A DNA stretch of 64,000 nucleotides from Styela clava (Eukaryota; Chordata; Ascidiacea; Stolidobranchia; Styelidae): assembly GCF_964204865.1 (NCBI RefSeq), contig NC_135252.1:18187383-18251382 (forward strand), given 5' to 3'. The notes beneath the pieces are model-generated. The model was not told the DNA's origin. It worked only from the letters and a program-made list of their open reading frames with translations, and did not search any database. Shown piece by piece: positions 730 to 55,948 of the stretch (positions within the stretch are counted from its first letter, which is position 1; every line of letters starts with the position of its first letter). A program made the translations under genes and the position numbers.

Positions 730-3700
730 ATGCTTGGGCGCGATTGCTGGTTTGTTCTGTCAACATTTCTTGCAATATCAAATGCAGGTAAGAACAATTT
801 TCATTTGCATTTGTTTTTGTACGGTTAAAAATCATATCTAACAAGTTGTATGCATTATGCTATACCGCATTTTGCTGATTTTCTGGTATTCGTAGTTTCG
901 TTTTCGGTTGCATAGCATATAATGCAATTTTGGTAAAGTATGCATTTTCGATATTATTGAAATCCAAGGCGTCTAATGTTATTTTTTATTGTGCACAAAA
1001 ACTTATAATCTGCGCGATCAACAAAGAATATTTGGATTATTATTTTTTTTCCAGGACTTTGGAAGACAGTGGACAGGCCCTTCTACAAACTCACCTTCTA
1101 TACAACTGCCTCTACCTGGTCAGAAGCAAAATCTTTTTGTGCGAATAGAGGATCAAGTCTTGTTCAACTCGATGTTAGCTTTATACAAAACGACGTACTT
1201 AACACAGTCAGAAGGTAATGATTTATTTAACATATACTCTCACAGTCAACACGAAAATATAGGGGACTGACTCCAAAAGCTTTATCAAAGTTTAACAAAG
1301 TTCGTCTATTGGTATTTGTATTTTTTATTAATTGTACTGAAAAAATAAATACTCATAATGTGTCTATTAATTAATGCCTTGCTGGTAATCTGTAACGAAT
1401 ATAGAGAATGTAATGAATAATGCGTAATTAGTTGATTTGGAAGCGCAACAGCCTCTCGAATAAAGCTAAGTTTTCTATCATACACTCATTAAAATAGGTT
1501 TGCATTTATTGTCAACAATAAAAAAAATATTAATGTAATAATACGTTATATATATTTGAATTTTGTTCGTAACAAATGTTTTAGCTGTAGACAGTGCTAA
1601 AATAGGATAGGATTTACATATTTATCCCGGGGGAGAGGAAAGCCGATAAGACGGCTTATTCATATGGCGAACCACGGCCTCTCGTCCGGTTACCATTCCA
1701 AGTCGGGAATGGGATTAGTTTTACTGTATTGTTTGTTTTCGGAAGCATGGACTTGGTGATGGAGGAAGCCGTAACCGACCAGCGGTCACGTGAACCACCC
1801 AACGACGGCGAGGAGTCCAGCAATCCTCTCGCACATAACCATCCCTGCATGAGATTAGAACCTGCGAACCCACGCAGAGTAATTAGAGGTGCGGTGGCGA
1901 GCGTATTCCTAACGCTTTCACATACCATGCGCCACGTTTTAAACATAATGTTTCAGATGCGCCGTAAATCTCTTGTATAAACATATATACACACGTACGT
2001 TACGCAATAAAGCTGTTTTTAACAACGAAGAGAAAAAGGTACGATTAAGGAGTATAGTTAGGCGTAATATTGTGACAACAGGCCTTTAGCGGTCTTACTA
2101 CTTACTGAATACAGCGCGAAACACCGCAAAGAGCGCAAACAGCGCGAAACAGAGGGAAACAGCGCAAAACAGTGGGGAAACAGGGACCTCAAGAAAAATG
2201 TGCACCAAGATGGCGCACAACCTGAAAATAGTATGTGTGTGTGAGTGTGTGTAGCGGATTCAGGTTGTGCGACATATTGCTGCACATACTTCTGGAGCAC
2301 CAAAAAGGTAGATAAAATTTCGCATGATGACCTATAATCCGGTACATAACCTTGTAAATATACCGGAAATAGCGCCATAAAACCATGGACAGAGGCGCCG
2401 TGGTTCTTTCGTGGCAAGAGGTGGTAATGACTGGGTCTCCTGTTTTGCGCTATTTCCCTCCTGTTTTGCGCTCTTGCGGTGTTTCGCGCTGTATTCAGTA
2501 AGTAGTAAGACCCGGCCTTTAGTATCGGTCTTACTACTTACTGAATACAGCGCAAAACACCGCAAAGAGCGCAAAACAGCGCGAAACAGCGCAAAACAGA
2601 GGAAAACAGTGTGAAGCAGAAAAAAAATTTGCAATGAGTTCAGGGCACCTTGTTTTGAGTTGGAGTACCACGGCAGCAAATTAAAAACACAAACCAACGT
2701 ATGTAGCCAGTAATGCTGTAATGGCAGGTCTGCCCCTGCTGGTGACACATTCTGGGTACCATAATTTAGAACATTTTCCATATGGATATGGTTGGCTTTA
2801 GGGTTAGGGTTAGGTAAAAAGGGACCTCCAGAAGTATGTGCACCAAGATGGCGCACCGGAAATAGCGCCATAAAACCATGGACAGAGGCGCCGTTGTTCT
2901 TTCGTGGCAAGAGGTGGTAATGACTGGGTCTCCTGTTTTGCGCTGTTTCCCTCTGTTTTGCGCTGGTTTCCTTCTGTTTCGCGCTGTTTTCCTCTCTTTT
3001 GCGCTGTTTCGCGCTATTTTGCGCTGTTTCGCGCTCTTTTGCGCTGTTTCGCGCTCTTTTGCGCTCTTTGCGGTGTTTCGCGCTGTATTCAGTAAGTAGT
3101 AAGACCCCTTTAGTATCAATATCTACTCTACTCTACCCTCGATTCTAATTGGCCTTTGCTAATCAGCTGTTTGGCCTAGCGTCGCGTGATTTTACTCCAG
3201 GCTTCTTCGAGATTAGTACTTGCGTCACAGCAAGCGATTTTACGCTTCGCTTTTGTTGACAACGGTCATTTGAAGTTTGGATGAAAAAGGTGGTATTTAG
3301 GGGTCATTTTCAGCATGTTGCGGATTGATTTATAATAAATTTTTTAGGCTTTGGCAATTTAACTGGTTGTTCAATGGTTATTGGGAGATATTTGGAAAGT
3401 CTGGGCAATGGAAAATCCATGTTTCAAGCTGATAAATGACGATTTGGGGCTCCCGAAGTATGCGAACCAAGATGGCGGACATCGGAATGTAATATGTGTA
3501 CTAGGTTAGGGTTAGGCCATAATTTTAGGTATAAATACTACGGGAGGCTTTTGGCTAGTCTTCGAACTGATAATAGGACTAAAATGAGAAAACTTGGAAA
3601 AAAATTATCGCCTAACCCTAACCTGTTACCCATGTTACGTTCCGATGTCCGCCATCTTGGTTCGCATACTTCGGGAGCACCGACGATTTTCTATTTTTCC

Positions 3701-55500: not shown

Positions 55501-55948
55501 TTGATGTTTTCCGAGCAGTGAAAGATTTGCGTGATTGCAGACAAGGAATGGTTCAGACTTTGGTAAATGCTCCTACAAGATATTTCTAGGTTGATTTCAA
55601 AAAATTTTTATGTGAGAATCTAAATGCACGACTGCGTTGGATCTTTTACATTGATTGTTCATTGTTCAATGCAAAAACTCAAATATACAACCTTAATTCT
55701 GGTATTAATTCAGTCTTTAAGCAACAAGGCTCTCATTTTTTACGGCTTGTTTTTATTCAATTCTATTTACACGCCTGTAAACCCAATATTGCCTATCTCT
55801 ATATATTCAGTAGCTTTTAAATATTGTTGTCACGAAAAATAAAATAACGAAGATATTATAATTGCAGGAACAATACAAATTTTGTCATACCGCAATCTGC
55901 AACTACATGAAGTCGTTTGAGATCTATTCAAACTTTGAAAATAAATGA
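40532..55948 (+). CDS. Gene C: CTLD-CTLD-Ig-FN3 receptor-type tyrosine phosphatase
   Basis: Exons: 40532-40589, 40849-41008, 42381-42479, 42745-42857, 44005-44173, 44263-44384, 44632-44922, 45270-45372, 45939-46059, 46178-46357, 46653-46860, 47177-47279, 47614-47745, 48097-48252, 49253-49338, 49515-49596, 49936-49997, 50166-50272, 50437-50533, 50881-50945, 51426-51560, 51727-51858, 51990-52141, 52275-52410, 52901-53001, 53452-53582, 53880-53956, 54333-54455, 54859-54993, 55192-55331, 55427-55562, 55868-55948. Sum 3993 nt, 1330 codons plus TGA, all phases consistent. Same domain order as gene B: signal peptide, CTLD1 with EPN, CTLD2, Ig, FN3s, TM about 706-727, PTP D1 (WPD 941-943, catalytic Cys977), PTP D2 (Cys1258, WSN in place of WPD). 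All introns have GT-AG ends, and this is the cleanest of the three genes. A TE-like insertion lies in intron 2. Expected at the cell surface, dephosphorylating tyrosines near the membrane. Confidence 0.9.
40849..44384 (+). other. Gene C tandem C-type lectin-like domains (exons 2-6)
   Basis: CTLD1: 40849-41008, 42381-42479, 42745-42857, with [38 protein letters not shown] (EPN) and final GVTCIK. CTLD2: 44005-44173 and 44263-44384, with [27 protein letters not shown] and YYVCEQ. CTLD2 and its flanking introns are much closer to gene A than to gene B, whereas CTLD1 exon 2 is closer to gene B. Confidence 0.8.
41041..41822. mobile_element. Inverted-end transposon fragment in gene C intron 2
   Basis: The ends are TAGGGTTGCCAAC and GTTGGCAACCCTA, perfect inverses. 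Flanks TTTACCAT and CTTACCAT are a 7-of-8 direct repeat, fitting an 8-bp hAT-type target duplication. It holds an 82-codon open frame at 41435-41683 (starting [16 protein letters not shown]) that I do not recognise for certain; it may be a leftover transposase piece. Absent from the same intron of A and B. Confidence 0.7.
44632..46860 (+). other. Gene C Ig domain and FN3 domains 1-2 (exons 7-11)
   Basis: Ig exon 44632-44922 ([25 protein letters not shown]). FN3 exons 45270-45372, 45939-46059, 46178-46357 and 46653-46860, with [20 protein letters not shown] and [12 protein letters not shown]. The exon 11 acceptor is a good TTTAAG, in contrast to gene A. Confidence 0.8.
47177..50272 (+). other. 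Gene C membrane-proximal module, TM and juxtamembrane exons (12-18)
   Basis: Exons 47177-47279, 47614-47745, 48097-48252 and 49253-49338 encode the FN3-like membrane-proximal region. Exon 49515-49596 encodes the TM helix ([20 protein letters not shown]), 49936-49997 a basic stretch and 50166-50272 the acidic VEEEE juxtamembrane part. Sequence is close to gene B across introns as well. Confidence 0.8.
50565..50765 (-). repeat. Possible tRNA-derived SINE in gene C (shared with B)
   Basis: Counterpart of 24930-25145 in the same intron, with the same box-like words on the - strand. Confidence 0.4.
52491..52780 (+). repeat. Dispersed repeat family, copy 3, inserted in gene C only
   Basis: Member of the 12941-13191 family, here with a fuller CATACAGACAGACAAATACC tail. 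The same intron in gene B (26915-27082) lacks it, so it inserted after the B-C duplication. Confidence 0.65.
53452..55948 (+). other. Gene C PTP domain D2 (likely impaired)
   Basis: Exons 53452-53582, 53880-53956, 54333-54455, 54859-54993, 55192-55331, 55427-55562 and 55868-55948. [15 protein letters not shown] is kept (Cys1258), while the acid loop reads [11 protein letters not shown]. This is the same pattern as gene B, so the change predates the B-C duplication. Confidence 0.87.

Follow-up and report, generated by a model that had tools for sequence, protein, structure and literature searches.

A candidate paired-receptor cluster in Styela clava: one lectin-Ig-FN3 ectodomain plan on ITAM-like tails and on tandem phosphatase domains

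Can receptors that share an ectodomain be paired when the partner opposing a tyrosine-motif tail is itself a receptor phosphatase? In vertebrate paired receptors, typically, one partner has an immunoreceptor tyrosine-based inhibition motif (ITIM) that recruits a soluble phosphatase and the other an immunoreceptor tyrosine-based activation motif (ITAM). The question is raised by three neighbouring genes, A, B and C, in a stretch of 64,000 nucleotides of the Styela clava genome (C3:18187383-18251382, hereafter the window), which forms one end of a cluster at C3:17.95-18.24 Mb. On balance we favour the view that this is a paired-receptor cluster, in which a single plan of two C-type lectin domains (CTLD), an Ig domain, two FN3 domains and a membrane-proximal region is joined to either of two cytoplasmic modules. 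Judged from sequence, the first module is a four-tyrosine, ITAM-like tail in gene A and about nine neighbours, and the second a predicted tandem receptor tyrosine phosphatase in B, C, two neighbours and one degenerate copy.

Genes A, B and C were modelled on the forward strand from conserved exons and splice sites (Table 1). Gene A (730-12027, start ATG at 730) has 17 exons and encodes 812 residues, gene B (15293-30120) 32 exons and 1325 residues, and gene C (40532-55948, stop at 55948) 32 exons and 1327 residues, so that the limits 730..55948 given for the locus in a preliminary description are exact. Exons 1-15 have the same order and phase in the three genes, which bears out the common exon order, phases and ectodomain modules proposed there, and encode a signal peptide, CTLD-CTLD-Ig-FN3-FN3 and a four-exon membrane-proximal region that resembles that of receptor protein tyrosine phosphatases (RPTPs). 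This shared exon order is far beyond chance. Every splice edge of the B and C models is AG/GT; A has one exception. The ectodomains are 67% (A-B), 70% (A-C) and 73% (B-C) identical in protein sequence, and the cytoplasmic parts of B and C are 93% identical. In Pfam scans of A and C, Lectin_C was found as two stretches in A and one in C; both proteins also had I-set (1.2e-14 in A) and a single fn3 stretch, and C had two Y_phosphatase stretches (4e-133). CTLD2 scores by itself only in A, and that of C was assigned by homology to A and by eye; FN3-1 was likewise assigned by eye, the homologous part of P0126 being a weak fn3 match. The earlier account was also right that A ends in a short tyrosine tail and B and C in tandem protein tyrosine phosphatase (PTP) domains; the tail is a separate exon (11879-12027), not part of the transmembrane exon.

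The transmembrane exon of A ends at 11114 in a strong donor (CAG/gtgaga), and the phase of the tail exon matches. The annotated S. clava protein P0121 makes the transmembrane-to-tail join at the same point, and P0125 makes it with an acceptor 3 bases further upstream, in frame; both models are predicted for neighbours of A, not for A itself, and they were the only two proteins found with the transmembrane and tail of A as query (E up to 10; 249 candidates of 5.8 billion sequences). Direct splicing of the two exons was kept because a 27-bp micro-exon considered between them, and rejected, would introduce a stop. By comparison with the gene models, P0121 itself looks like a fusion in which the Ig-FN3 exons of the neighbouring gene G8I run into the transmembrane and tail exons of the gene that follows downstream.

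The tail of A has 48 residues (TTDTQHHLNTSINTYETIAEASNGYEDITDPPDWNPYEIAVSQYETVL) and four tyrosines, in the motifs YETI, YEDI, YEIA and YETV, at ITAM spacing. It was compared within a set of 11 tails, ten read from DNA and one, at 18.151 Mb, taken from P0121, its probable annotation; the decayed place at 18.0996 Mb was left out. The four tyrosines are invariant in 11/11 tails in an alignment of which 25/50 columns vary, and 2/12 core motif columns are variable (hypergeometric p 0.009). The pattern Yxx(L/I)x6-8Yxx(L/I) occurs in 9/11 tails, A included, and shuffling the composition of the G6I tail gave ITAM spacing in 1529/200000 cases (0.8%). The mean ratio of nonsynonymous to synonymous substitution (dN/dS) of the tail is 0.44 over the seven modelled tail-type genes and 0.31 over the four open ones plus A.

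On the phosphatase side, B and C each have one transmembrane segment and two PTP domains, as tandem receptor tyrosine phosphatases do. The catalytic motifs of the first domain (D1) of such proteins are KNRY, WPD and HCxxGxxRTG. D1 of B and C keeps KNRY, WPD and an HCxxGxxRTG-type signature, as is also seen when P0001, the annotated model of the neighbouring gene G4P, is aligned with PTPRS. The second domain (D2) keeps HCTDGAGRTG, but WSN replaces the WPD of a competent domain; from these motifs D1 is apparently active and D2 pseudo-active. The dN/dS is 0.16 in D1 and 0.18 in D2, and the tail, like the phosphatase, is evidently under purifying selection by this measure. The best PDB matches of P0001 are structures of PTPRS, LAR, PTPRA and CD45. 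Receptor phosphatase exons are very numerous in the genome and often clustered, with at least 152 matches on C1, C2, C3, C10 and others (150/319 first-look candidates were scored). In the models P0002 and P0003, exon 15 is joined straight to exon 18 and the transmembrane exons are skipped in frame, and P0122, P0123 and P0128 apparently terminate by read-through of the last membrane-proximal donor; these five are possibly soluble forms or annotation artefacts.

A search of the genome (376.6 Mb) with the transmembrane and tail exons of A gave 30 matches. Counting A, 11 places carry the tail exon with E <1e-19 and a twelfth is decayed (E 0.03-0.45); all 12 lie within C3:17.964-18.199 Mb. Two matches elsewhere have E >2 and were taken as noise, at C4:5898711 (E 2.3) and C2:18432710 (E 3.4), the latter on the opposite strand, upstream of a phosphatase-type gene. 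The Ig exon has 14 copies in the cluster (one split into two matches) and one on C2 at 59% identity, the 22 additional matches being distant Ig domains. Four of the 14 belong to phosphatase-type genes and seven to modelled tail-type genes; the other three (18.144, 18.164 and 18.176 Mb) are presumed tail-type, transmembrane and tail matches following them on the same strand. Gene A is thus one of about ten tail-type genes, not a lone partner. That A is a truncated B or C was considered and rejected: its transmembrane and tail exons matched no DNA of B or C, and 11 more places, one of them decayed, have the tail. Homology between A 12938-13190 and the DNA past B and C was likewise rejected as a phosphatase remnant, as it recurs in both orientations and is taken to be a dispersed repeat.

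We read 17.94-18.14 Mb and modelled eight neighbour genes there; 18.140-18.187 Mb was covered at two 3-kb loci. Among the tail-type neighbours, G1I, G5I and G6I have 17/17 exons open with canonical edges, and G3I is open with one shifted acceptor, its in-frame AG falling a few bases into the tail exon. In G7I the Ig exon is frameshifted and the FN3-2a donor is lost; in G8I, CTLD1 contains a stop as well as a frameshift, and the signal peptide is matched incompletely. The phosphatase-type G2P is open throughout, with a non-AG placed edge at one phosphatase exon. G4P is open and lacks two CTLD1 exons (CTLD1b/c); its placed edges are non-AG at one phosphatase exon and one CTLD2 exon, both of which P0001 starts further upstream. 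G0P (phosphatase-type) and GxI are degenerate copies, and remnants lie at about 17.952-17.962, 18.030, 18.076-18.081 and 18.10 Mb.

Ectodomain relationships cross the boundary between the two types. Maximum-likelihood trees were built per segment from 10 genes for CTLD1 (G4P absent) and 11 for the others; G0P and GxI were left out of trees and identity tables, and dN/dS omits G7I for Ig and G8I for CTLD1. The approximately unbiased (AU) test rejects a phosphatase-type clade for CTLD1 (3e-91), CTLD2 (1e-73), Ig (0.003), FN3-1 (8e-45) and FN3-2 (2e-39), and marginally for the membrane-proximal part (0.049). B is 95% identical to the tail-type G8I in both CTLDs, and at most 85% (CTLD1) and 77% (CTLD2) to other phosphatase-type genes. 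In CTLD2, C is 92% identical to A, and the Ig domains of G4P and G6I are 96% identical. The membrane-proximal region of A is 95% like that of G8I and about 62% like those of B and C.

The neighbour G8I reads as a clean mosaic, B-like upstream and A-like downstream. At sites where B and A differ, its CTLD1-2 agree with B 129 times and with A 13 times, and the membrane-proximal exons agree with A 161 times and with B 10 times (Fisher p 4e-59, a value that treats sites as independent and is overstated). The similarity of G8I to B extends from about 760 bp upstream of the signal-peptide exon of B to CTLD2, at 83-96% with one exceptional 200-bp intronic step at 74%, and then falls; the upstream DNA of the two genes is 83-92% alike. 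As this genomic similarity runs from upstream through CTLD2, B and G8I share upstream DNA and lectin domains yet differ in tail. The A-like stretch runs from near A 7980 to the tail exon, mostly at 81-96% and with an unaligned gap at 8859-9250, and then falls. Synonymous distances (dS) agree with the trees in pointing to ectodomains independent of tail type: dS is 0.08 between A and C in CTLD2 and 0.24-0.52 in other distal ectodomain comparisons, against 1.2-1.3 between A and B or C in the membrane-proximal part and 0.13 between the cytoplasmic parts of B and C. By these comparisons ectodomains have evidently been swapped between types by recombination or gene conversion, and such cross-type exchange reads as the recombination signature of paired receptors. 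Exchange within types is also seen.

That a single ectodomain plan serves two opposite tails, in the manner of vertebrate paired receptors, had been proposed in the preliminary description and is supported by the multigene cluster, the conserved tyrosines and the cross-type exchange; the polarity it suggested, with an activating A and inhibitory B and C, is something we infer, as are the ligand and expression of the three genes. Both types would bind the same or overlapping ligands, Src-family kinases would phosphorylate the tail and SH2 proteins would be recruited, and the phosphatase-tailed partner, drawn to the same ligand, would remove or tune the phosphorylation. We are evenly divided on whether the cluster represents a pairing whose opposing member is itself a catalytic receptor phosphatase, with lectin-Ig-FN3 ectodomains passing continually between the ITAM-like and phosphatase bodies and the balance of matched types setting the response without SHP-type intermediates. 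The phosphatase here is built into the receptor, and if the pairing is functional it would be an independent solution in the sister group of the vertebrates; self/non-self or immune-type recognition would then be linked with a lineage-specific expansion of receptor phosphatases. The pairs B with G8I, C with A and G4P with G6I offer a matched gene set for models of shared ligand and opposite signal.

Several observations weigh against the paired reading. Taken by themselves, the four invariant tyrosine columns could be due to chance (p 0.055), 2/11 tails have shorter spacing, and in 6/11 the last tyrosine also fits an ITIM pattern. At -3 of the first tyrosine, the acidic residue that belongs to the strict ITAM definition in the consulted sections of PMC2832619 is missing; because of this and of the ITIM pattern, ITAM-like is the apt term. 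The transmembrane exon of the tail type is weakly constrained (dN/dS 0.72-0.76), and 3/7 modelled tail-type genes are damaged, A by a lost acceptor and G7I and G8I by broken exons. The membrane-proximal part tends to cluster by type (35-38/500 label shuffles were as low), the AU p-values and site counts assume independent sites and so overstate certainty, and exchange among tandem duplicates requires no selection for pairing. CD45-type phosphatases can activate or inhibit, and since receptor phosphatases can activate Src-family kinases an opposite polarity is not implied. The two types might even co-operate, a CD45/CD148-like phosphatase member activating the Src-family kinases that phosphorylate the tail-type receptor, a possibility that we entertain tentatively. 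CD45-type action works by size exclusion, for which a shared ectodomain is unnecessary, and this speaks against co-operation. The retained and strongly constrained D1 motifs and the PTPRS, LAR, PTPRA and CD45 matches of G4P (P0001) would suit it, as would the CD45-like phosphatase expressed in Botryllus ampullae according to the consulted part of PMC12065747.

The tail, for its part, could be another phosphotyrosine dock or an endocytic signal (Src-SH2, Shc/Grb2-type, phagocytic uptake) in place of a Syk-type ITAM, a reading that we likewise entertain tentatively; the YxxI-x6-YxxI spacing of 9/11 tails speaks against it. Src-family SH2 domains favour the pYEEI class, and YETI, YEDI, YEIA and YETV come near to it; the missing acidic residue also points this way. 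A CEACAM3-type tail likewise lacks that residue and works in bacterial uptake, as reported in the consulted sections of PMC2832619. An unlikely explanation is plain birth-and-death of a lineage-specific phosphatase family, in which the tail arose by exon replacement, tails hitchhike on duplication and conversion is indiscriminate. The remnants, the damaged tail-type genes, the exchange within types and the abundance of phosphatase exons count in its favour; the tyrosines invariant in 11/11 tails, a tail dN/dS <0.5 and three wholly open tail-type genes with canonical edges argue against it and are in keeping with the paired-receptor reading.

For that reading, what is the state of gene A itself? 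Exon 11 of A (start 7911) is preceded by TTTTAA at 7905-7910, with AA at 7909-7910 in place of the acceptor, which is AG in B, C and 8/8 modelled neighbours; of the degenerate copies, G0P has a non-AG edge there and GxI is not placeable. No in-frame canonical acceptor was found upstream of exon 11 in our reading of the A models, as a stop intervenes, and skipping the exon shifts the frame. A may be defective because this acceptor is lost, and as assembled it may give a truncated ectodomain only. That A as assembled is a pseudogene or a non-productive allele, so that the pair inside the window alone would be non-functional, seems to us slightly the likelier case. A near-identical annotated S. 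clava protein for A was not among the named proteins found, which would fit; none was found for B either, and absence from the annotated set is therefore not specific to A. On the other side, A has open frames and AG/GT edges in its remaining 16 exons, dN/dS between the A and B ectodomains is 0.43, and AA could reflect a single allele or a single assembly base. A single base from one haplotype is insufficient to decide the state of A.

Among known paired systems, the CEACAM receptors, whose sequences are not known to be related to those of this cluster, offer a close parallel in evolutionary behaviour. The consulted sections of PMC2832619 describe CEACAM1/CEACAM3-type pairs of ITIM and ITAM-like members whose ligand-binding exons are very similar, apparently because gene conversion and recombination keep them so, and a CEACAM3-type ITAM-like tail without the -3 acidic residue that functions in bacterial uptake. 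The S. clava cluster resembles these pairs in its similar ectodomains, its conversion or recombination and its ITAM-like tail without that residue; unlike it, the CEACAMs have an Ig-type ectodomain and an ITIM, not a phosphatase domain, on the opposing side, and are mammalian. Botryllus, a tunicate of the same family Styelidae, has clustered multigene fester/FcoR receptors with activating- and inhibitory-type tyrosine motifs, FcoR having an IgV-sushi-Ig ectodomain (IgV, sushi, two C2 Ig) with hemITAM and ITIM tails, and its ampullae express Syk, Src, SHP-1 and CD45-like proteins (PMC12065747, consulted in part). As clustered tyrosine-motif receptors FcoR are like the A type; unlike in the cluster, no CTLD or FN3 is named and no phosphatase-tailed members are mentioned in the consulted sections. 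Neither A nor C has the FcoR makeup, as Pfam gives CTLD, one Ig and fn3 in both and no sushi. PTPRS, LAR, PTPRA/E and CD45 are like B and C in their tandem PTP domains with conserved D1 motifs and a degenerate D2, and in Ig/FN3-type ectodomain parts; the cluster differs from them in its C-type lectin domains and in its tyrosine-tailed sister genes. It does have two marks of paired receptors, namely clustered similar ectodomains with differing signalling tails, and cross-type recombination or conversion.

Among the titles and abstract beginnings of open-licence literature, we recognised no pair in which an ITAM-like receptor and a receptor phosphatase have the ectodomain in common, which is not proof of absence. 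The preliminary description knew of no family that holds this pair; we likewise found no description of the combination with an ITAM-like sister in the literature searched. Phosphatase tails on a scaffold of this kind also occur outside this locus. Two other S. clava RPTPs combine lectin ectodomains with tandem PTP domains, P0004 (one CTLD, Ig) and P0011 (three CTLDs, Ig), and the Ciona RPTP P0062 has EGF and CTLD. They are like the cluster in placing CTLD with Ig (S. clava) or EGF (Ciona) before tandem PTP, and unlike it in lying elsewhere in the S. clava genome or, for P0062, in another species. The new element would be the four-tyrosine sister type, CTLD-Ig phosphatase receptors existing elsewhere in S. 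clava. Ciona receptor phosphatases of the FN3 type are described in PMC5336234, where C-type lectins are unmentioned in the part consulted. The membrane-proximal region of P0004 and P0011 has a basic KRKKR stretch, presumably furin-like, that is absent from the modelled cluster members. P0011 also carries YENL, YAEL and YENI in its juxtamembrane part and C terminus, which may hint at where tyrosine tails came from.

The closest relative outside the cluster is an Ig exon at C2:18426145 (-), about 7 kb upstream of phosphatase exons on the same strand, among which the D1-signature exon shares 86% identity with B; from place and strand these would be parts of one gene. As the one close relative outside the cluster is phosphatase-type, the phosphatase form is probably ancestral and the tail form derived. 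The same direction, from inhibitory to activating members, has been proposed for vertebrate paired families. As to the source of the tail exon, the genome search with the transmembrane and tail exons found no convincing copy elsewhere.

Table 1. Modelled features of genes A, B and C (window positions).
Feature	Position	Strand	Remark
Gene A exon 1, signal peptide	730..787	+	
Gene A CTLD1, 3 exons	1055-1214, 4276-4374, 4546-4664	+	EPN present
Gene A CTLD2, 2 exons	5353-5521, 5612-5733	+	second Lectin_C stretch of A
Gene A Ig domain exon	5967..6257	+	I-set
Gene A FN3-1, 2 exons	6575-6677, 7206-7326	+	FN3 by eye
Gene A FN3-2, 2 exons	7448-7627, 7911-8118	+	
Gene A first membrane-proximal exon, extra copy	8422..8499	+	degenerate
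Gene A membrane-proximal region, 4 exons	9329-9431, 9667-9798, 10188-10343, 10518-10615	+	
Gene A transmembrane and juxtamembrane exon	10944..11114	+	hydrophobic stretch without charged residue
Gene A tail exon	11879..12027	+	ends ..NTYETIAEASNGYEDITDPPDWNPYEIAVSQYETVL stop
Gene B exon 1, signal peptide	15293..15350	+	
Gene B CTLD1	15627-15786, 16321-16416, 16616-16728	+	
Gene B CTLD2	17565-17727, 17829-17956	+	
Gene B Ig	18189-18476	+	
Gene B FN3-1	19683-19785, 20668-20788	+	
Gene B FN3-2a exon, extra copy	20906..21016	+	ends in stop
Gene B FN3-2	21138-21314, 21610-21817	+	
Gene B membrane-proximal region, 4 exons	22141..23753	+	
Gene B transmembrane and juxtamembrane exons	23944..24424	+	
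Gene B PTP domain 1, 8 exons	24562..27186	+	
Gene B PTP domain 2, 7 exons	27633..30120	+	HCTDGAGRTG, WSN for WPD
Gene C signal peptide to FN3-2	40532..46860	+	annotated protein P0003 bears same ectodomain
Gene C CTLD1	40849-42857	+	
Gene C CTLD2	44005-44384	+	
Gene C Ig	44632-44922	+	
Gene C FN3-1	45270-46059	+	
Gene C FN3-2	46178-46860	+	
Gene C membrane-proximal region, 4 exons	47177..49338	+	
Gene C transmembrane and juxtamembrane exons	49515..49997	+	
Gene C PTP domain 1	50166..53001	+	exon 19 start may be 9 bases earlier, 50437
Gene C PTP domain 2	53452..55948	+	ends at stop

Several smaller features of the region were also noted. B and C, together with the DNA downstream of each, are a recent tandem duplication, 26966-33030 against 52780-58925 being 90-92% alike over about 6 kb, introns included, above the level of the ectodomain exons. 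Within B, a 229-bp tandem duplication at 20802-21239 gave a second, broken FN3 exon copy, and the long CTLD1 intron of A holds short-period tandem arrays of the ACAGCGCAAA and CTGTTTTGCG type (2111-3086). Just past the cluster, about 9 kb beyond the end of the window, an SH2 exon (L037 7471-7785; C3:18259971-18260285, -) flanks it, which we take to be that of a Shc-type adaptor and for that reason rejected as a signalling partner. Open reading frames with reverse-transcriptase/integrase-like text lie between B and C (35423-39428, -) and just past the cluster (L037 3-3662, -), presumably from a Ty3/gypsy-like retroelement.

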